From: Clostridia bacterium | GTDB lineage: Bacteria > Bacillota > Clostridia > Oscillospirales > CAG-272 | Direction: 5' to 3' | Assembly (NCBI GenBank): GCA_017387685.1 | Contig: JAFOEU010000055.1 | Span: forward strand, 1-64,000 | Length of the DNA: 64,000 bases | Shown: piece by piece, positions 3,034-54,985 of the stretch | How the letters are laid out: each line of letters begins with the position of its first letter | Position numbering within the stretch: the first letter of the stretch is position 1 | Notes under the pieces: generated by a model | What the model saw: only the letters and a program-made list of their open reading frames with translations | Told to the model about the DNA's origin: nothing | Database searches by the model: none | Translations under genes and position numbers: made by a program

Positions 3034-3340
3034 TGTTTTCTGCTTCGCAGAAAGTTAAGGTTTATTTTATTAAAGACAACAGCGACAGAAAGTTTTGATC
3101 AAACTTTTTCAAAAGTTTGCGGTTTCTTAAGGCGGAGCCTTAAGTCGACCGCCGCAGCGGTCGAAACTCTCTCCGTGCTTCAAAGAGGCGCCGCCCCGGC
3201 GCCGTTTTGGAAGGAGTAAAACCACCCCTTGAGGGTGGTTTTCGCTCCTTCACCCCTGATGTACTAAATTATTTAACCCCACAAAACCAATATGCACAAA
3301 CAAAATTATCAACGTAGGGACCGACGTCCTCGGCGGTCCC
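3031..3340 (+). repeat. Modular intergenic repeat, copy b, with an R2-like half unit
   Basis: The head is a single mini-hairpin (TTTCTGCTTCGCAGAAA) between a TGATG linker and TTAAGG. The core region (TTTATTTTATTAAAGACAAC) and the R1 hairpin tail follow, including an ACCACCCC/GGGTGGT stem that differs from copy a while keeping its pairing. At the end lies CGTAGGGACCGACG...GGTCCCTACG, one arm pair of R2 without its middle. The repeat separates the second and third paralogs. Confidence 0.7.
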
Positions 3341-5309: not shown

Positions 5310-5541
5310 TGATAATTTTGTTTGTGTATATTGGTTTTGATTGGGTTATATAATATAGTTCATCAGGGGTGAATGAGCGAAACCCTCCCGCTTTGGCGGG
5401 AGGGTTTACTCATTCTAATCGGTCGGCAGGGGCGCCGCCCGATTGAAGCGCGAGGGAGTGTTTCGCCGTCTGCGGACGGCGACTTAAGGAACTTTTTGAA
5501 AAAAGTTCCTTAAGAAACTTCAAAAACTTTTAGCTGGATGT
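5310..5541 (-). repeat. Modular intergenic repeat, R1 tail only, downstream of gyrA
   Basis: The reverse-oriented R1 tail directly follows the gyrA stop: AAGGAACTTTTTGAAAAAAGTTCCTT (5485-5510), a GCCGTC/GACGGC hairpin, and an ACCCTCCCGC/GCGGGAGGGT hairpin set in GAGCGAAA...TTTACTC. No tandem head is present. The AAGGAACTTT hairpin could also end gyrA transcription. Confidence 0.65.
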
Positions 5542-14741: not shown

Positions 14742-14936
14742 AACTTGTTGAAAGTTTTCGTCCACCTTTTTCAAAAGGTGGCAGATTCTTAAGGCGGAGC
14801 CTTAAGTCGCCCGCCGCAGCGGGCGAAACTCCCTCATGCGCTTAGAAATGACGGCGCCCCGCCGGCATTTCTGAAGGAGTAAATTATCCCGCTTGCGGGA
14901 TGATTTCGCTCCTTTGCGCTTCTTTTGCAAAATTTT
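14742..14936 (+). repeat. R1 tail inside the dnaA-dnaN intergenic region
   Basis: AAGTTTTCGTCCACCTTTTT / CAAAAGGTGG, then a TTAAGGC/GCCTTAA hairpin, a GCCCGCCGC/GCGGGC stem, and a TCCCGC/GCGGGA stem set between GGAGTAAAT and TTTCGCTCC. It is plus-oriented and faces a minus-oriented unit at 14938-15200, so two tails converge beside oriC. Confidence 0.65.
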
Positions 14937-14937
14937 G

Positions 14938-15200
14938 TGCTGCATAGGGGGGACTTAATCAATACTTCCCTACATTCGGGAAGTATTGATTAAGTCCAAA
15001 ATCCCGAAGCGGAGCTTCGTGATTTTGAAGCGCGGGAGGCGAGACCTGAAGGTCTCGCATTGAAATGAGGCTCCGCCTCAAACTCCGCGAACTTTTGAAA
15101 AAGTTCGATCAAAACTTTCCGCTATTAATAAAATCGAAAATTTTCGAGCAACGCGAGAAAATTCTCCTTCAACTAATAACTAATAACTAGTAACTAGCAA
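14938..15200 (-). repeat. Modular repeat, copy f (ACTAGTTGCTAGTT head, R3 tail) after dnaA
   Basis: Read on the minus strand it starts at the dnaA stop codon itself (TAAGTTGCTAGTTACTAGTT). The core AAGGAGAATTTTCTCGCG and its mirror follow, then AAAGTTTTGATCGAACTTTT. The tail is the R3 type: a CTTCCCTACATTCGGGAAG hairpin with an extended stem (GACTTAATCAATA/TATTGATTAAGTC) and an AAAATCCCGAAGC hairpin. R3 recurs at 45300-45500 with altered stem bases. Confidence 0.7.
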
Positions 15201-27014: not shown

Positions 27015-27045
27015 TGCAACCAAACGAAAATTTTGTTGTGTATAT
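27015..27045 (+). promoter_or_regulatory. ECF-type autoregulatory promoter
   Basis: TGCAACC (27015-27021), 16 bp, GTGTATATA (27038-27046), followed by GGTGTAGGG. The same pair with the same spacing occurs on the minus strand at 42363-42333 (GTCTATATA). It most likely responds to the sigma factor encoded directly downstream. Confidence 0.65.
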
Positions 27046-27069
27046 AGGTGTAGGGCAATGGAGGCAAAT

Positions 27070-27624
27070 ATGCAAGACAATAAGATCGTAGATCTGTATT
27101 TCGCCCGCGACGAGCAAGCGATCGCTCAGACGTCGGCTAAATACAATACCTACTGTATGAATATTGCAATGAATATTTTGCACAACCGCGAGGACAGCGA
27201 GGAATGTGTAAACGACACATTGCTTGCGGCTTGGAATTCGATACCGCCGCACCGTCCCGAAAATCTCTCGGCTTTCCTTGGTAAGCTCACGAGAAACTTT
27301 TCGATCAACCGCCACAAGGCAAATCATGCCGAGCGGCGAGGCGGAGGCGAGTTCGCTCTCTCTCTCGAGGAGCTTGACGAGTGTATCGAGGATCCGCGAA
27401 CGCTTGGGGATGACCCCGAGGAGCTCGGACGGATCATAAGCGAATTCCTTTATACTCAACCAAAGGAAATGAGGCAGGTTTTCGTCCGCCGATATTTCCA
27501 CAGCGAGTCGATCTCGGATATCGCAGAATACTTCGACATGACGGAGTCAAAGGTCAAGTCGATACTTCACCGAATGCGCCACTCACTTAAACCCTATCTC
27601 ACCGAACACGGAATACACATCTGA
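27070..27624 (+). CDS. ECF RNA polymerase sigma factor
   Basis: 184 residues. Region 2 has NREDSEECVNDTLLAAWNSI and LSAFLGKLTRNFSINRHK; region 4 has RQVFVRRYFHSESISDIAEY and MTESKVKSILHRMRHSLKPY. An earlier in-frame ATG at 27058 exists, but GGAGG lies 5 nt before the ATG at 27070, which I prefer. The gene is followed by a membrane protein (likely anti-sigma), a lipoprotein and two polymer O-acetylation genes. By analogy with SigV-OatA in Bacillus, a cell-envelope modification response is a reasonable guess. Confidence 0.92.
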   Translation: MQDNKIVDLYFARDEQAIAQTSAKYNTYCMNIAMNILHNREDSEECVNDTLLAAWNSIPPHRPENLSAFLGKLTRNFSINRHKANHAERRGGGEFALSLEELDECIEDPRTLGDDPEELGRIISEFLYTQPKEMRQVFVRRYFHSESISDIAEYFDMTESKVKSILHRMRHSLKPYLTEHGIHI

Positions 27625-27643: not shown

Positions 27644-28198
27644 ATGAAAAACGAAATTCTGGCGCAAGCTATGACGCACATCGACGATGCGCTGATAGCC
27701 GAAGCAGATGAAAGACGCTCGCGCGGATCAAAGATCACCGCTCGCAGTCTGATGAAAAATGCCTACCGTTGGGGCTCGATCGCCGCTTGTATGATACTCG
27801 CGGTCGTAGTTCTCATCACGGCTACTCTCAGCGGACAGGACGTCCTTCTCTACGGCGAAAGCATTGCCGATTCACCAAGAACCGTCAGCGAATATATGCC
27901 CCTCGCTCTGGCACATATCGTTGAGACCCTCGAGGCTCCGGACGTTCAGATCCCACTCGAGCTCGAATTTAAAAAGGAAACAAAGATAACACTCACGTCG
28001 GGCAGCATGATCGTTCTTGATGAGAACGGCGACACGCTCTGCGACGGCACCGAATATCTCGCATCGGGCAGCGTTTCCCTCATCGTCACCCTCCCCGGAG
28101 ATGCCGAGAAATGCATTATCGAAACCGACAGAGGTTACAATATCGTACTTACGCAGGACGGCGAGTCCCATATCTGGTACGTTAATATAGAAAAATAA
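27644..28198 (+). CDS. Membrane protein, putative anti-sigma factor
   Basis: 184 residues. A cytoplasmic N-terminal part (about 1-45: MKNEILAQAMTHIDDALIAE and on) precedes one transmembrane segment (about 46-64) and an outer beta-rich domain. No zinc-finger Cys/His set is present. Position 19 nt after the ECF gene and the one-TM layout make it the natural cognate anti-sigma factor; this is inference from context. It is followed by a lipoprotein gene after 42 bp. Confidence 0.72.
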   Translation: MKNEILAQAMTHIDDALIAEADERRSRGSKITARSLMKNAYRWGSIAACMILAVVVLITATLSGQDVLLYGESIADSPRTVSEYMPLALAHIVETLEAPDVQIPLELEFKKETKITLTSGSMIVLDENGDTLCDGTEYLASGSVSLIVTLPGDAEKCIIETDRGYNIVLTQDGESHIWYVNIEK

Positions 28199-31716: not shown

Positions 31717-31740
31717 TATAAAAATATTTTGAAAAAAGGC

Positions 31741-31769
31741 TTGACAAACCGATCGATTTGTGCTATAAT
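31741..31769 (+). promoter_or_regulatory. tRNA-Arg promoter
   Basis: TTGACA (31741-31746), 17 bp, TATAAT (31764-31769): a full consensus match, about 30 bp before the tRNA. Confidence 0.85.
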
Positions 31770-31799
31770 ATTTAAGCGTTATACGAGATATAACGAAAT

Positions 31800-31876
31800 G
31801 CGCCGTTAGCTCAGCCGGATAGAGTGTTTGGCTACGAACCAAAAGGCCGGGGGTTCGAGTCCCTCACGGCGCGCCA
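31800..31876 (+). tRNA. tRNA-Arg (anticodon ACG)
   Basis: 77 nt with the 3' CCA encoded. The acceptor stem GCGCCGT pairs with ACGGCGC. The D stem is GCTC/GAGT, the anticodon stem TTTGG/CCAAA with loop CTACGAA (ACG), and the T arm GGGGG TTCGAGT CCCTC. ACG becomes ICG after deamination and reads CGU, CGC and CGA. It has its own promoter and terminator. Confidence 0.95.
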
Positions 31877-31877
31877 C

Positions 31878-31916
31878 GAAAAAAGCACCGAAGCAAAGCT
31901 TCGGTGCTTTTTTCGT
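31878..31916 (+). terminator. tRNA-Arg terminator
   Basis: GAAAAAAGCACCGAAGC, AAA, GCTTCGGTGCTTTTTTC. A duplicate of this hairpin with flanking bases is at 32083-32112. Confidence 0.9.
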
Positions 31917-32112
31917 GCCACACCGTTCGATAACTCGAACCCCGATGTGTTTTCGCTTGCGAAAACACATCACTGCTCGCGCTACCGCAGCACAAAATTA
32001 TCAAACCCAATAACGCGCGAGCTGGGGGTTCAGAGTCCCGGAGAAAATACCTTGCACCCAAACTTAGTTCGGGCGCTGCACCGAAGCAAAGCTTCGGTGC
32101 TTTTTTCGTGTC
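31917..32112. repeat. Duplicated terminator and tRNA-derived debris
   Basis: GCACCGAAGCAAAGCTTCGG plus CACACCGTTCGATAACTCGA-like flanks (31886-31943) recur at 32083-32134. Between them lie a GATGTGTTTTCGC/GCGAAAACACATC hairpin (about 31950-31972) and a stretch GGGGGTTCAGAGTCCC that resembles a T arm. No intact RNA gene is visible. Confidence 0.5.
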
Positions 32113-32186
32113 CCACCGTTCGATGCTCGAACCATAGACCTTCAGAGTCGGAGTCTGATGCGCTATCCGGCTGTTCCACGGGCAGA
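32113..32186 (-). pseudogene. Degenerate tRNA-Arg (CCG)
   Basis: On the minus strand, GCCCGTGGAACAGCCGGATA and GCGCATCAGACTCCGACTCT resemble the 5' two thirds of a tRNA: acceptor, damaged D arm and a sound anticodon arm (TCAGA CTCCGAC TCTGA, anticodon CCG). The T arm and 3' acceptor do not pair (TATGGTTCGAGCATCGAACG). I call it a pseudogene; a very divergent functional tRNA is unlikely. Confidence 0.5.
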
Positions 32187-38231: not shown

Positions 38232-38250
38232 TTTTGCACCTGATGAAAAA

Positions 38251-38310
38251 GTTGCTAGTTGCTAGTTACTAGTTACTAGTTGAAGGTAGATTTTCTCGCC
38301 CGAAGGCGAG
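38251..38310 (+). repeat. Modular repeat, copy i (left flank of the four-helix-bundle gene)
   Basis: GTTGCTAGTTGCTAGTTACT array, then AAGGTAGATTTTCTCGCC and mirror GGCGAGAAAATC. It is the near-exact inverted copy of 38723-38771. Confidence 0.75.
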
Positions 38311-38314
38311 AAAA

Positions 38315-38683
38315 TCAATTAATTGAAGCTTCAATTCTAGTAATTAAAGATGTAAGCATACGAGCAATCTCTTGTGATAGCTGTTTGATGGGTTTAATAT
38401 TGCTTGATGAAATATAGCCGATGCGCTCGCAAATCAATAGTTGGGTGAACAATTCAGCATTTGAGCCTTTAGCTATACATAAAAATTTGAGAAATTCTTT
38501 TTGACTGTTCCTGGAATGTCCTTCGGCAATATTGGAAGGGATAGAAACTGCAGCTCGACGCATTTGATTTGTGATGCCGTATAATTCTTCTCTGGGAAAG
38601 TGTTTGGTGAGGCTATATATCTCCACAGTAAGATCCATGGCTTTTTGCCAAACGTTAAGCTGTTCATATCCTTTTGCTTCCAT
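38315..38683 (-). CDS. Four-helix-bundle protein (23S rRNA IVS type)
   Basis: 122 residues. It matches the family often encoded in 23S rRNA intervening sequences: LNVWQKAMDLTVEIYSLTKH, FPREELYGITNQMRRAAVSI, PSNIAEGHSR. The family forms pentameric helical bundles of unclear role and is often mobile-element-associated. It interrupts the arginine operon between argB and argD and is flanked by inverted repeats of about 49 bp. It has lower GC than the neighbouring arg genes, which suggests later arrival. No clear ribosome-binding site is seen. Confidence 0.85.
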   Translation of the reverse strand: MEAKGYEQLNVWQKAMDLTVEIYSLTKHFPREELYGITNQMRRAAVSIPSNIAEGHSRNSQKEFLKFLCIAKGSNAELFTQLLICERIGYISSSNIKPIKQLSQEIARMLTSLITRIEASIN

Positions 38684-38700
38684 TATATAACCATTATTTA

Positions 38701-38771
38701 TTAAAAATACTTTTCGAGCAACGCGAGAAAAGTTACCTTCAACTAGTAACTAGTAACTAGCAACTAGCAAC
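38701..38771 (-). repeat. Modular repeat, copy j (right flank of the four-helix-bundle gene)
   Basis: On the minus strand, starting at the argB stop (TAAGTTGCTAGTTGCTAGTT), then the core AAGGTAACTTTTCTCGCG with mirror CGAGAAAAG-type arm. It mirrors copy i with only two differences over about 49 bp. Confidence 0.75.
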
Positions 38772-39629
38772 TTATTCCAGCACCATTGTGCCAAGACCTT
38801 CATCTGTCAAGATCTCAATCAAAATAGAGTGCGGAACTCGTCCGTCGATGATGAAGACGCGCTTTACGCCGCCTCGGACAAGATCCGCGCATCCGTTTAC
38901 CTTCGGGATCATTCCGCCCGAGATCGTTCCGTCCGTGATCATCTTATCTATATCGTCAAGGTGTATCTGCGAGATGAGAGTGGAAGGGTCGTCCTTATTC
39001 GCAAGTATGCCGGGGGTGTCGGTCAGCGAGATGAATGCCTCCGCGCCGAGTGCCGCCGCAATCTCGCCCGCCATTGTGTCGGCGTTGATATTGTAGATCT
39101 CGCCCGTCTTATCGCACGCAACGCTCGAAATTACGGGAATATAGCCCTTATTCAGCACGTCGGTAATAAGTCCAGTATTGACCTTGGTGATCTCGCCGAC
39201 GTATCCGAGTGCGGGATCAAGCTCCTTGACGTGGATCATATTCGCGTCAATTCCCGAAAGTCCCACAGCAAGTCCGCCGACCGAGCCAATCAGTCCGACC
39301 AGACCCTTATTGACCTTTCCCGCGAGGACCATCGTTGCGACCTTTGCGGTCTCTGCATCGGTCACGCGGAGTCCGTTTTCGAATTTGCTCTCGATATTCA
39401 TTCTCTTGAGCGTTTCGGTCAGCGCGGGGCCGCCGCCGTGGACGAGAACTACCTTGACTCCGATGCGGTTAAGCAGTGCAACGTCGCGCATAACGTCCTC
39501 TTTGAGGCTTTCGTCGATCATCGACGAGCCGCCGTATTTGATGACGATTATTTTGTCGGTGTATTTTTTAATATATGGAAGTGCCTCGACCAGCACTTTT
39601 GCGCGGTCTGCGTTTGAAATATTTATCAT
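38772..39629 (-). CDS. argB: Acetylglutamate kinase
   Basis: 285 residues of the amino-acid kinase fold. The N-terminal IVIKYGGSSM binds ATP phosphate, VLVHGGGPALTETLKRM binds acetylglutamate, and ANKDDPSTLISQI lies near the end. It phosphorylates N-acetylglutamate, the second step of arginine synthesis. Its start overlaps the argJ stop by 4 nt (ATGA). The stop codon lies at the start of a tandem repeat. Whether it is feedback-inhibited by arginine cannot be told with confidence. Confidence 0.95.
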   Translation of the reverse strand: MINISNADRAKVLVEALPYIKKYTDKIIVIKYGGSSMIDESLKEDVMRDVALLNRIGVKVVLVHGGGPALTETLKRMNIESKFENGLRVTDAETAKVATMVLAGKVNKGLVGLIGSVGGLAVGLSGIDANMIHVKELDPALGYVGEITKVNTGLITDVLNKGYIPVISSVACDKTGEIYNINADTMAGEIAAALGAEAFISLTDTPGILANKDDPSTLISQIHLDDIDKMITDGTISGGMIPKVNGCADLVRGGVKRVFIIDGRVPHSILIEILTDEGLGTMVLE

Positions 39630-41894: not shown

Positions 41895-41927
41895 TGAATA
41901 AATAATCATTATTTGCATAAAAATTCG
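41895..41927. promoter_or_regulatory. Two ARG-box-like sites (ArgR/AhrC)
   Basis: TGAATAAATAATCA (41895-41908) and TGCATAAAAATTCG (41914-41927) match the ARG-box core TGAATWWWWATTCA in 13 and 12 of 14 positions. They lie about 30-60 bp upstream of the argC -35, between it and a divergent plus-strand promoter-like sequence. Binding is inferred from the match and location. Confidence 0.5.
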
Positions 41928-41943
41928 TCCCGAAAATTTCCCA

Positions 41944-41972
41944 TTGACAAGAAAGGATAAATATGTTATTAT
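41944..41972 (+). promoter_or_regulatory. Divergent promoter-like sequence facing the 42.06-kb terminator
   Basis: TTGACA (41944-41949), 17 bp, TATTAT (41967-41972) on the plus strand. A transcript would run about 110 nt to the hairpin at 42062-42093. No convincing coding sequence lies in it. Confidence 0.4.
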
Positions 41973-42061
41973 AAAGGTAGAAAAAATCAGAATTTTTTTC
42001 AAAAAGACAGTAGCTGCATCCAAATTAATGAAGCAGTCCCTTCCCTTTTATGACAAAAAAC

Positions 42062-42093
42062 AAACACCCGACCGCGTAATCGGTCGGGTGTTT
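42062..42093. terminator. Intrinsic terminator of the small-gene transcript
   Basis: AAACACCCGACCG, loop CGTAAT, CGGTCGGGTGTTT. On the minus strand it is followed by a T-rich run (TGTTTTTTG), so it fits the transcript of the small gene ending at 42100. Confidence 0.85.
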
Positions 42094-42099
42094 GTTAAT

Positions 42100-42216
42100 T
42101 TATCCGCTCCGAACCCGAAGAAACGCCGGTAACTGCGTCTTACCTTTGTTTTTTTCGGATTCGGTGCGGTGGAGACTGTTGCGCACATTTTCCTTGACGC
42201 TATCAATCACCGACAT
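42100..42216 (-). CDS. Small 38-residue protein, ECF-promoter controlled
   Basis: 38 residues: MSVIDSVKENVRNSLHRTES, then EKNKGKTQLPAFLRVRSG. GGGAGG lies 6 nt before the ATG, and the reading frame is closed by TAA just before the terminator. The product is basic, with a possible amphipathic N-terminal helix (residues 2-16). It has no signal peptide and no family I recognise. It is expressed from an ECF-type promoter and, further up, a housekeeping promoter. A hairpin ends directly at the ribosome-binding site. Function unknown; the gene is too small for most gene callers. Confidence 0.6.
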   Translation of the reverse strand: MSVIDSVKENVRNSLHRTESEKNKGKTQLPAFLRVRSG

Positions 42217-42226
42217 GTCAGACCTC

Positions 42227-42254
42227 CCGGGCGAGTTTGACGCTACTCACCCGG
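42227..42254 (-). promoter_or_regulatory. Leader hairpin abutting the ribosome-binding site
   Basis: On the minus strand, CCGGGTGAGT, loop AGCGTCAA, ACTCGCCCGG (one G-U pair). The 3' arm runs into GGGAGG. The loop sequence TAGCGTCAA recurs in the small gene's codons 5-8. The hairpin may control translation of the small gene; this is inference. Confidence 0.45.
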
Positions 42255-42332
42255 TGTCGCAGCAGTGTTGAAAGAAAACACGCGTTCCGTCATTACCACG
42301 AATTTGTTGGGGTTCAATTTTCCCCTCTACTT

Positions 42333-42363
42333 ATATAGACAACTTTTTTTCAAAAAGGTTGCA
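42333..42363 (-). promoter_or_regulatory. ECF-type promoter of the small gene
   Basis: On the minus strand, TGCAACC (42363-42357), 16 bp, GTCTATATA (from 42340), then AGTAGAGGGG. It is a match in boxes and spacing to 27015-27045 upstream of the ECF sigma gene. Confidence 0.65.
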
Positions 42364-42447
42364 TATTTTTAGAAAAAATTTGATTTTTTTCAGAAAGAAT
42401 TTCTCGCCGAGATTAGACAATCCGACATCATAGAATTCTTTTATGAT

Positions 42448-42476
42448 ATTATACCACTTCTTTGCCCTACTGTCAA
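42448..42476 (-). promoter_or_regulatory. Housekeeping promoter upstream of the small gene
   Basis: On the minus strand, TTGACA (42476-42471), 17 bp, TATAAT (42453-42448): a full consensus match. The leader between it and the ECF promoter contains GAAAAAAATCAAA, also found in front of the ECF gene at about 26985. Confidence 0.75.
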
Positions 42477-42627
42477 GAACTAATTAAGCGATTAGTCATT
42501 TTGACGATAAGTTTGTTTACAATAACTAAAATAAGTGGACTGATAAGTATAAAATACGACAAGTTGCACATACTTCCGCATTTCGTTGCCATTTAATGCT
42601 TTTTTTATAAATCAAGGGTGAATTTCT

Positions 42628-43635
42628 TTAATTTCCGCCCTCTGCAGGAGTATTTACGCTGCCGGTGTTACCGATAACGGGCAGAACGGTATCTGTACCG
42701 CTTACAACGGTATCGGGAAGCTTACCGTCCCAGCCGAGTGCCTCGTAGTACTTGATGAGCGCCTCGGTCAGCGATTCTGCGAGAGCCTTATTAGCCTCTG
42801 CCTCCTTCTCGCCCGCATACTTTTCGGCGTCTGCGGCGAGCTTCTTTGCCTCTGCCTCGGCGGCAGCCTTGATCTTTGCTACCTCTGCGTCAGCTGCAGC
42901 CTGAATTTCCTTGACCTCTGCTTCTGCAGCTGCCTGGATCTTTTCACGCTCTGCAGCCTTTTCCTGCTCCATCGTCTTCTGAGCCTGCTCGGTCTGTGCC
43001 TTCAGGAGAGCCTGCTCTGCAACGACCTTATCCTCAACGCTCATGGTGAAGGCGTCGGAGAAGTCGATATCCTCGACCGCGGTCGAAACTACGACGATGT
43101 TATACGCGCCAAGCTGCTCGATGAGCGCGTCTGTGATCTGTGTCGAAAGTGCCTCACGGCTCTCGATCAGAGCCTCTGCGGTGTACTTCGCGATAACGCT
43201 CTTGACAACCTCCTGAATACGGGGCGCCATAACGGTGTTGTAATAGTCAACGCCGATCTCCTTATAGATCTTCTGCGCGTTTGCCTTTTCGATCTGATAG
43301 TTCATCGAATAGGAAACGAGGACCTCCTGAATGTCGCTCGAGAACGCGGAGAGCTCGAGGTGCGCGACCTGAGTTCTGTTATCCATACAAACGATCTCCT
43401 GGAAGGGAGATTTCATATGCATACCCGCCTCGAGGGTCTTATCCTCAACGCGACCGAAGGTGGTCAGAATACCCGTGTGACCGGTCGGAACGGTTGCAAC
43501 CATACCGCCGAGCGCGACGAGTGCGCCGAAGACGCAAAGAATCTGCTTGGGGCAAAGCTTCCACCCCGATTTTGAAGAGCCTAAAAGAACAAAAAGAACG
43601 ATAACGGCAATTGCCGCTGCAACAACCCAAAACAT
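42628..43635 (-). CDS. SPFH/band-7 (prohibitin/HflC-like) membrane protein
   Basis: 335 residues. Two hydrophobic segments (about 2-18 and 32-48) are followed by the SPFH domain (TGHTGILTTFGRVEDKTLEA, EDIDFSDAFTMSVEDK). A long Ala/Glu/Lys coiled coil (about 210-285, with repeated AAAEAEVKEIQAA-like units) leads to a short tail. SPFH proteins form large rings on membranes and organise lipid domains or protease complexes. No HflK or NfeD partner is adjacent. It has its own promoter and no terminator is obvious downstream. Confidence 0.92.
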   Translation of the reverse strand: MFWVVAAAIAVIVLFVLLGSSKSGWKLCPKQILCVFGALVALGGMVATVPTGHTGILTTFGRVEDKTLEAGMHMKSPFQEIVCMDNRTQVAHLELSAFSSDIQEVLVSYSMNYQIEKANAQKIYKEIGVDYYNTVMAPRIQEVVKSVIAKYTAEALIESREALSTQITDALIEQLGAYNIVVVSTAVEDIDFSDAFTMSVEDKVVAEQALLKAQTEQAQKTMEQEKAAEREKIQAAAEAEVKEIQAAADAEVAKIKAAAEAEAKKLAADAEKYAGEKEAEANKALAESLTEALIKYYEALGWDGKLPDTVVSGTDTVLPVIGNTGSVNTPAEGGN

Positions 43636-45299: not shown

Positions 45300-45658
45300 T
45301 ATTTCCCTTCCGCGCCTGCGGGCGCGGGGGTGACAGAGCGCACTACTTCCCTACATTCGGGAAGTAGTGACTCTGTCCAAAATCCCGAAGCAGAGCTTCG
45401 TGATTTTGAAGCGCGGAAGCGCGAGCTGAAGCTCGCGCATTAGTCCGAGGCTCTGCCTCGTGCTCCGCGAACTTTTGAAAAAGTTCGATCAAAACTTTCC
45501 CGCTTTCTTCCTTTTTATAATAATAGAAAATTTTCGAGCGCAGCGAGAAAATTCACCTTCATTTTGCCGAAGGCAAATTATCACTCTCGCGTAAGCGAGA
45601 TTATCACTTCGCCGCAGGCGAATTATCACTCGCGCGAAGCGCGACAAACCAAGGAGTC
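45300..45658 (-). repeat. Modular repeat, copy k (mini-hairpin head, R3 tail)
   Basis: On the minus strand, starting next to the acyltransferase start: hairpins TCGCGCTTCGCGCGA, TCGCCTGCGGCGA, CTCGCTTACGCGAG and TTTGCCTTCGGCAAA, joined by AGTGATAAT linkers. The core AAGGTGAATTTTCTCGCTGC with mirror GAAAATTTTC follows, then AAAGTTTTGATCGAACTTTT. The R3 tail (AAAATCACGAAGCTCTGCTT, CTTCCCGAATGTAGGGAAG) matches 14938-15125, with stem bases changed in pairs. Confidence 0.75.
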
Positions 45659-49242: not shown

Positions 49243-49545
49243 AGGAGCGAAAATCTCCCCCGGGGGAGATTTTACCCCTTCCGAAACGTCGGCGGGACGC
49301 CGCCGTTTCGAAGCACGGGGAGTGTTTCGACCTCTGCGGAGGTCGACTTAAGGAACTTTTTGAGAAAAGTTCCTTAAGAATCCTCAAAAACTTTCCCGCT
49401 ATTGTTTTATAATAAAATCGAAAATTTCCGAGCGCAGCGACGGAAATTCACCTTCAATTTGCCGCAGGCAAATACATTATCACTCTCGCGAAGCGAGATT
49501 ATCACTCTGCCGAAGGCAGATTATCACTCACGCGAAGCGTGACAG
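49243..49545 (-). repeat. Modular repeat, copy m (mini-hairpin head, core, R1 tail)
   Basis: On the minus strand, hairpins TCACGCTTCGCGTGA, CTGCCTTCGGCAG, CTCGCTTCGCGAG and ATTTGCCTGCGGCAAAT, joined by AGTGATAAT. The core AAGGTGAATTTCCGTCGC with mirror GGAAATTTTCG follows. The R1 tail contains AAGGAACTTTTCTCAAAAAG, GACCTCCGCAGAGGTC and ATCTCCCCCGGGGGAGAT stems. The head lies about 25 nt from the rarA start. Confidence 0.75.
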
Positions 49546-50810: not shown

Positions 50811-51488
50811 CGAGTGCGAACCCTCATCATTTGGGTAAAGTGATGAGTTTCTCCTACGGAGAAACGTGATGATTTGGCTTCGCCAAAGTGATGATTGCGC
50901 TTCGCGCAAGTGATGTTTCGTCCTTCGGACGAAGTTAAGGTAATTTTTCGCCGAGGCGAAAAATAATTTATTAAATGACAAGTGCGAACATAGCACACTT
51001 GGTGTCCCCTCATCACCCGCTGCGGCGGGAGCTTCTCCCAGGAGAAGCCTAGGGGGCAAGGCGGATGCCTTGCGTGAAATATTTCGCCTGCGGCGAAATG
51101 TGAAATTTTTGCTTCGCAAAAGTGAAATTCACGCTTCGCGTGAGTGAAATATTCCGCTAAAGCGGAATGTTAAGGAAGAAATTTGCCAAGGCAAATTTCA
51201 AATTTTATAAAATCAATGTAGGCTGAACATAGAATTCGCAGTTCTAAACCTTAGGCTTCTCCTGGGAGAAGCTCCCGCCGCAGCGGGTGATGAGGGGACA
51301 CCAAGAAAGCTATGTTCGCACAAGCAATTTTTATTAAGATTGAAATTTACCTCGGCAAATTTCCACCTTAACTTCGCCCGAAGGGCGAAACATCACTTGC
51401 GCGAAGCGCAATCATCACTTTGGCGAAGCCAAATCATCACTTTTCTCCGCAGGAGAAAAACATCACTGATGATCTGTGTTCGCACTCG
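50811..51488. repeat. 678-bp inverted-repeat element with mini-hairpin arrays (copy n)
   Basis: The outer ends are CGAGTGCGAAC and GTTCGCACTCG. The left arm carries an array of mini-hairpins (GTTTCTCCTACGGAGAAAC, TTTGGCTTCGCCAAA, TTGCGCTTCGCGCAA, TTCGTCCTTCGGACGAA) joined by GTGATGA. The right arm (51370-51475) carries the mirror array. Between them is a paired stretch (GGTGTCCCCTCATCACCCGC on the left, mirrored at about 51283-51303). The centre holds a second array with GTGAAAT linkers (51075-51170). No coding gene is supported. Confidence 0.75.
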
Positions 51489-54403: not shown

Positions 54404-54427
54404 GTGGAAGTGAAAGGAGGTAGAAGC

Positions 54428-54985
54428 ATGACAGACGAACAAATCATTGAATTGCTGTTCCGGCGTGACGAGCGTGCGCTCTCCGAGATCGAATCCAAAT
54501 ACAAGAGCTTGCTCAGATATATCGCCGAAAACTTCCTCTCCGCGCGCGAGGATGTGGAAGAATGCCTCAACGACGTTCTGCTCAGCGTCTGGAACGCCAT
54601 TCCTCCCGAGAAACCCGAAGATCTGCGCGCTTACGTCTCTGCGGCTGTGCGAAACTGCGCGATCGACAAGCTTCGCTCGAATAAAGCCGACAAACGCGGC
54701 GGCGGATTTCGAACGGTCAGCGACGAATTTCTTTTGATGCTTGATGACGGTACCGATCTTGCAAGTGAATTTGAAGCGCGCCGTGCGGGCGAGATCATCA
54801 ACGCCTTTCTCGCACAGCAGAGCGAGGAAAGCCGCGATATCTTCGTAATGCGCCACTACCTCGGAATGAGCTACGCAGAGATATGCGATATTTTCGGCTG
54901 TTCGGAGGGAAAGGTGAAAATGTCACTTTTACGTTCAAGAAAAAAGCTTGCCGCAAAATTAAGAAAGGAAGGTATTTTTGTATGA
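54428..54985 (+). CDS. ECF RNA polymerase sigma factor
   Basis: 185 residues. Region 2 has AREDVEECLNDVLLSVWNAI and LRAYVSAAVRNCAIDKLRSN; region 4 has RDIFVMRHYLGMSYAEICDI and CSEGKVKMSLLRSRKKLAAK. The ATG is preceded by AAAGGAGGT at 6 nt. A longer in-frame start at 54374 lies within the promoter. The next gene overlaps by 4 nt and encodes its probable anti-sigma partner. Confidence 0.92.
   Translation: MTDEQIIELLFRRDERALSEIESKYKSLLRYIAENFLSAREDVEECLNDVLLSVWNAIPPEKPEDLRAYVSAAVRNCAIDKLRSNKADKRGGGFRTVSDEFLLMLDDGTDLASEFEARRAGEIINAFLAQQSEESRDIFVMRHYLGMSYAEICDIFGCSEGKVKMSLLRSRKKLAAKLRKEGIFV

Follow-up and report, generated by a model that had tools for sequence, protein, structure and literature searches.

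A 64,000-nucleotide stretch of a Clostridia genome, analysed here as a whole and called the window, carries on its minus strand a compact unit built around a 38-codon open reading frame. A sequence-only reading of this DNA had taken the frame for a small protein from the regulon of an ECF sigma factor encoded in the same window. This raises the question of what the unit produces and which sigma factor drives it. According to our analysis, the feature is real, but its reading as a small protein was mistaken: it almost certainly yields an RNA rather than a peptide, and the RNA family is narrow.

Organization of the Locus

Read along the minus strand, the unit opens with a sigma-A promoter and an ECF-type promoter, continues through a short leader and two hairpins, the first of them long, and closes with a terminator. 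The earlier reading had listed a promoter, a leader hairpin, the GGGAGG sequence, the 38-codon frame (42100–42216, with the ATG at 42216 and the TAA at 42102–42100; judged here not to be a gene) and a terminator, and every one of these elements was found in the sequence. The leader hairpin, which is G+C-rich, lies together with the GGGAGG and the beginning of the frame within one long, nearly invariant hairpin (hairpin 1, 42182–42284). It is preceded by the 5′ leader of the ECF transcript (42292–42331), whose start would be near 42325, and followed by hairpin 2 (42104–42168), in which the stem varies in sequence and is kept by compensatory changes. The intrinsic terminator (42059–42096) consists of a 16-pair stem at 42096–42059 followed by T's. 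Upstream of the RNA, also on the minus strand, there is an SPFH/Band 7 gene (42628–43635; PF01145, E 3.4e-31), which holds this position in all four genomes that carry the RNA, namely the window's own genome and the relatives G003, G004 and G007.

The conservation of the locus is uneven. The window, G004 and G007 are 88–93% identical in the ECF promoter region (42324–42363), 50–56% just upstream of it, between the promoters, and 42–58% just downstream, in the poorly conserved leader (42292–42323). Identity rises to 93–98% in hairpin 1 (42175–42290) and is 61–85% in hairpin 2. By sequence and folding prediction, the locus would give a structured non-coding transcript with an intrinsic terminator, as expected of an ECF-dependent small RNA (sRNA).

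Predicted Structure of the RNA and Its Conservation

The predicted fold was better than that of shuffled sequences (z −7.7 for the window and −7.4 for G007), and none of 200 shuffles was as good. Hairpin 1 is one long hairpin in the predicted folds of both. In the MAFFT alignment of the four sequences, 97.1% of cells pair. Both sides had changed in 16 of the 86 counted pairs, which include five proposed kissing pairs that never vary; the shuffled mean was 9.0 (0 of 500 shuffles reached the observed value) and slid versions of the structure gave 1–4, a control biased towards our structure because the latter was predicted from the same four-sequence alignment that was used for counting. The covariation score was 0.240 against a shuffled mean of 0.129 (0 of 500). 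One covariation measure, the number of further pair types, was not beyond the shuffles (130 of 500).

Thirteen of the 16 doubly changed pairs belong either to helices 7 and 9 of hairpin 2 or to the terminator. In helices 7 and 9, both sides had changed in 9 of 13 pairs, and in the terminator in 4 of the 16 pairs aligned among the four copies. These counts were taken from the MAFFT alignment; when the register of hairpin 2 was instead adjusted manually, sequence by sequence, 41 of 44 cells paired across 11 positions. The inner 5-bp stem of hairpin 2 reads GGUAA/UUACC, GGCAA/UUGCC, GAUCA/UGGUC and GAUCA/UGAUC in the four copies. When the arms of hairpin 2 were swapped between copies and the duplex energies calculated, the native arm was the best in three of four rows; the exception was G007, for which the arm of the window was marginally better (−30.2 versus −29.9, a difference of 0.3 kcal/mol). 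Judging from the alignment of four copies, apparently of one clade, the RNA structure is preserved through compensatory changes.

Hairpin 1 is a different case. Of the 39 pairs in its helices 3–5, 33 never vary, and since the hairpin hardly varies, covariation barely probes it. Both of its arms are more conserved (93–98%) than the SPFH gene region (81–84% DNA identity between the window and each relative). As far as can be judged from these sequences, this conservation of both arms exceeds what folding alone requires, and the invariance may reflect a constraint other than folding.

Between the leader and the terminator loop, the base-pair probabilities calculated for the window RNA leave three segments of 4 nt or more unpaired at a probability above 0.7, namely AGCGTCAA at 42244–42237, TAGCGTCA at 42202–42195 and GACGCAG at 42139–42133. 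They hold the motif AGCGUCA twice, in an apical loop (42238–42244, here called socket 1) and in a bulge (42195–42201, socket 2), and the motif GACGCAG in the apical loop of hairpin 2 (42133–42139, the plug). All three motifs lie on the minus strand, are predicted to be unpaired and are invariant in the four copies. The GACGC of the plug is complementary to the GCGUC of both sockets, and a 5-nt complementarity to the loop-1 region arose in 105 of 20,000 shuffled loop pairs. In the predicted structure, GACGC and GCGUC could plausibly form a kissing contact, inside one molecule or joining two; because these pairs never vary, covariation speaks neither for nor against it.

Promoters of the RNA and the ECF Sigma Factor

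The ECF-type promoter TGCAACC-N16-GTCTATATA proposed by the sequence-only reading is present on the minus strand and ends at 42332, one position away from the 42333 given there (42332–42363). The ECF gene is preceded by the matching promoter (27015–27046, plus strand), as that reading had stated; this promoter is identical in G004 and present as a GTGTATATT variant in G007. The exact motif occurs at these two places only in the genome. A search of the 2.58-Mb assembly, which is about 85% complete, set the exact pattern TGCAAC-N16-18-GTSTATA apart (two sites, none in the reversed control), whereas with one mismatch allowed the pattern was at background (17 matches versus 14 in the control). The promoter stands directly upstream of the RNA in the window, G004 and G007. 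G003 has a diverged copy (17/22; 2 of 200 shuffles as good) one gene further upstream, before a lipoprotein-like gene. Taken together, the sequences make an ECF-type promoter at 42332–42363 credible.

The unit, described earlier as ECF-controlled, is not purely of the ECF type. A sigma-A promoter overlooked in that reading, TTGACA-N17-TATAAT with a TG extension, lies on the minus strand at 42448–42476, 84 nt upstream of the ECF-type promoter, and matches the consensus at 12 of 12 positions. All four copies of the locus share the two hexamers, their spacing and the GTGG that precedes TATAAT, and the 29 bases as a whole are 66–79% identical among the window, G004 and G007. An automatic promoter scan with a loose threshold found one promoter against 1.6 expected in shuffles; the weight therefore rests on the perfect match and the conservation.

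The likeliest ECF driver is encoded on the plus strand at 27058–27624 (Pfam sigma-70 regions 2 and 4, Sigma70_ECF). Upstream of its matching promoter there is a sigma-A-like TTGAAA-N18-TATAAT. The adjoining gene (27644–28198, plus strand) has no Pfam or NCBIfam match; its position and a hydrophobic stretch seen by eye suggest a possible membrane anti-sigma factor. To compare promoters, we used the RNA promoter itself as the query and mononucleotide shuffles as controls, and covered the regions ahead of part of the ECF matches, namely 21 of 22 in the own genome, 11 of 29 in G004, 4 of 27 in G007 and 6 of 31 in G003. It turned out that the region of 27058 was the best of the 21 own regions (20/22, the next 17/22), most of which had no clear match. 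The upstream regions of its orthologues, whose proteins are 88–90% identical in G004 and G007, scored 20/22 and 19/22, respectively.

Sigma-A or a different ECF factor might instead be the main driver of the RNA, with the link to 27058 being wrong. The perfect sigma-A promoter with hexamers conserved in all four copies would fit this, as would the abundance of candidate drivers: the 27058 protein has 22 matches in its own genome, 31 in G003, 29 in G004 and 27 in G007, against 0–7 in the nine other genomes of the genus, counts that include some fragments. The co-occurrence of the RNA with many ECF matches may come from shared ancestry. Moreover, the GTC of the RNA promoters corresponds to GTG in the three 27058 promoters; the 20/22 match to the RNA promoter is also reached at the ECF gene C38 in G003 and at an ECF-like gene in G080; and no close orthologue of 27058 was seen in G003, where the best protein is 51% identical and the assembly is about 84% complete. 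Against another driver speak the lead of the 27058 region over the next own region among the 21 compared and the conservation of the ECF promoter in the window, G004 and G007, the very genomes with a 27058 orthologue. We consider a different driver unlikely. The proposed regulon link thus stands as far as the conserved promoter and the best-matching region go, and is loosened by the number of ECF matches, the GTC/GTG difference and the lack of a close orthologue in G003. On the sequence evidence, the ECF link of the RNA is supported, not proven.

Similar promoter-like sequences were seen elsewhere. In the own genome, two further loosely matching promoters precede genes that are lipoprotein-like by eye, in a search that gave eight matches against four in the control. 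A second ECF sigma factor gene in the window (54425–54979, plus strand) has an upstream region scoring 12/22, without a match to the RNA promoter. In G003 (locus L033), a second ECF-promoter-like sequence, TGTAACC ... CATCTATAC, lies on the minus strand at about 2842–2811, just behind the SPFH gene and upstream of the sigma-A/ECF pair. TGTAACC-spacer-GTCTATATAAGTGAAGG-like promoters stand before genes that are ECF-like by eye at L024, L010, L025 and L019, in several genera of the family; they possibly represent a family-wide motif of ECF autoregulation. For comparison, the promoter consensus sequences of the three C. difficile ECF factors are reported to be still unidentified (PMC7438776).

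Distribution and Neighbourhood of the RNA

A DNA search found the element in four of the 13 genomes of the genus, the own included; nine are without the RNA. An exact 33-mer search of genome contigs returned three records, which we took as the relatives already found, G004, G003 and G007, in that order; all three are metagenome-assembled genomes, with goat caecum, goat colon and yak colon as their respective sources. The bacterium's closest relatives are Clostridia for which gut samples of goats and yaks are the only known source. The SPFH proteins are 85–89% identical among the relatives and at most 68% identical in other genus members with a match, which suggests that the four RNA-carrying genomes form one clade. 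No match to the covariance model was found at the SPFH-neighbour loci of other genus members (L039–L044).

Beyond the genus, a DNA search of 395 genomes of the family matched 16 of them and covered the RNA in the same four only. The other 12 gave short promoter-like, A/T-rich or terminator pieces, some of them before genes that are ECF-like by eye; the gene behind one such promoter-like piece, C38 in G003, was confirmed as an ECF match. The covariance model (R1) found four strong and three weak matches (18.7–21.9 bits) in the 395 family genomes, and the own genome plus one weak match (21.6 bits) in 394 genomes of the order, drawn evidently without G003, G004 and G007; these runs used stricter filters, which lose some weak matches. 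Among the weak matches, L128 was rejected, as it lies inside a 345-aa frame, and L129 has only one G+C-rich hairpin in common with the RNA. L127 and L130 were not counted as homologues. An exact 24-mer of the RNA had no match in viral contigs.

At threshold, Rfam matched only tRNA and Gut-1 across the window, both away from the RNA locus. Up to E 5, there were 18 matches in the region 41900–42700, all below the gathering score; we rejected them, and most overlap the terminator stem. A search of titles and the beginnings of abstracts found no description of this RNA, which, given the incomplete coverage, is weak evidence of absence.

Other elements of the window were noted along the way. The Gut-1 RNA lies on the plus strand at 51072–51155 and scores 54.8 bits (gathering score 50). 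A gene for a protein of the 23S rRNA-intervening-sequence type (38315–38683, PF05635) stands between two genes that we take to be argB- and argD-like. It is bordered by the intergenic repeats D4 (38249–38317) and D11 (38711–38779), rich in short CTAGTTA-like repeats, and the segment 38249–38779 could be a small mobile cassette. Dispersed repeats, hairpin-like by eye, occur at 80–165, 3088–3173, 14750–14835, 15035–15120, 45415–45500, 5454–5530 and 49318–49394, and similar repeated matches are also present in contigs of G003 and G004.

The neighbourhood bears on whether the element acts in cis, that is, as a leader or 3′-UTR element that merely protects or terminates a transcript and has no role in trans. 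The SPFH gene keeps its order and strand in all four genomes, and in G003 and G004 a lipoprotein-like gene separates it from the RNA. On the other side, the nearest gene of a recognized family encodes a semialdehyde dehydrogenase in the window (presumably argC-like), a pantothenate kinase in G004 and a ribulose-phosphate epimerase in G007; that side of G003 resembles window positions 31727–32122, the part holding an Rfam-matched tRNA. Since the downstream neighbour differs among these four genomes, with no shared downstream gene found, the RNA probably does not serve as the leader of the gene that follows it. A 3′-UTR role would fit G003, where the stop codon of the lipoprotein-like gene lies a few nucleotides ahead of the RNA and both the sigma-A promoter and the diverged ECF promoter precede that gene, so that in this genome an ECF-controlled mRNA may carry the RNA as its 3′ end. 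The G003 gene has no Pfam or NCBIfam match and was called a lipoprotein by eye; the gene upstream of the promoters in G004 is weakly similar to it (21% identity over 290 residues, E 2e-7). However, the other three copies have promoters of their own with no recognizable gene between promoter and terminator, and the sequence of hairpin 1 is conserved beyond the needs of stability. A purely cis-acting element thus appears rather improbable to us.

The Reading Frame in the Four Copies

A dual-function RNA would regulate and also encode a short peptide, which could start from the conserved GTG of codon 3 (VIDSVKE...). The stretch VIDSVKE(D/N)(A/V)RNS is indeed open from this GTG in all four copies; but it lies within the 3′ arm of hairpin 1, where the nucleotides are nearly invariant anyway, and the C-termini are not alike, two of the four extending through the terminator. 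We regard this as very improbable. The 38-residue ECF-controlled protein starting from the ATG at 42216 is hardly credible after alignment of the four copies, in spite of the invariant SD-like GGGAGG and ATG and a 38-codon frame open in the window and G004, because the frame has 2 codons in G003 and, shifted, 52 codons through the terminator in G007, because 8 of the 10 codons changed between the window and G004 are nonsynonymous and 2 synonymous, so that the synonymous bias expected of a gene is absent, because no Pfam family matches the product even at E 10, and because the frame outside hairpin 1 is just 61–85% identical, as against 93–98% in hairpin 1; we therefore rejected it.

Proposed Role of the RNA

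With moderate confidence, and arguing from sequence features, we propose that the locus encodes a structured non-coding sRNA driven by an ECF factor, most likely 27058, and by sigma-A, and that this RNA probably acts in trans. The ECF-driven RNA would span roughly 270 nt of the minus strand, starting near 42325 and ending near 42052, and the transcript from the sigma-A promoter would span about 390 nt. Sigma-A would provide basal transcription, and the ECF factor would induce the RNA upon its release. The RNA would then form the trans-acting, post-transcriptional arm of the ECF response: the exposed AGCGUCA and GACGCAG motifs may pair with mRNA or bind a partner, and GACGC-GCGUC kissing, inside one RNA or between two, could open or close them.

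An antisense scan covered the starts of 49 non-overlapping window ORFs of at least 100 aa with five segments of the RNA and one shuffled set, and established no target among these starts. Three of the segments (bulge, junction and leader) scored no better than this shuffled set, and the two loops scored somewhat better: in loop 1 only the top site (−13.8) lay below the best shuffled value (−11.4), and in loop 2 the four top sites did (−10.9 to −9.0, against −7.9).

A more far-reaching reading is that the RNA represents a class of ECF-induced switches. One plug would compete for two identical sockets, within a molecule or between molecules, and as the ECF response raises the RNA concentration, the RNA would toggle between closed, open and multimeric states; the motif set free would pair with envelope or sigma-factor mRNAs. 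We consider this improbable at present and mention it as a speculation.

If the sRNA reading is right, a supposed small protein becomes an RNA family that has no Rfam match at threshold and is linked by its promoter to a Clostridia ECF sigma factor. It would offer a candidate for the post-transcriptional side of an ECF response, in a clade whose genomes contain 22–31 ECF matches each.

Comparison with Known Systems

In E. coli, the 3′ end of an mRNA gives rise to the sRNA MicL, an arrangement similar to the layout in G003. The stable hairpin of the RNA described here is much longer than those of MicL and the related sRNAs. E. coli RpoE controls the sRNAs MicA, RybB and MicL (PMC8103513); these are sRNA genes under an ECF sigma factor, as may be the case here, and this sRNA arm of the RpoE response is the nearest functional parallel to the role proposed for our RNA. 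They belong to Proteobacteria, whereas our locus is from Clostridia, has a tandem consensus sigma-A promoter and belongs to no Rfam family at threshold.

Comparative genomics has also yielded structured RNA motifs in Clostridia and in microbiomes; one of them, the raiA motif RNA, or ModT, is likewise a conserved structured non-coding RNA of Clostridia (PMC11706538). It differs in that the RNA found here has no Rfam match at threshold, is present in only four of the searched genomes and has an ECF-type promoter. Finally, our RNA is far shorter than ROOL, GOLLD and OLE and has no Rfam match. These three are ornate RNA-only assemblies reported to form homo-oligomers (PMC12286853). The loop complementarity of our RNA could in principle join molecules in a similar way, although its oligomerization is a speculation.
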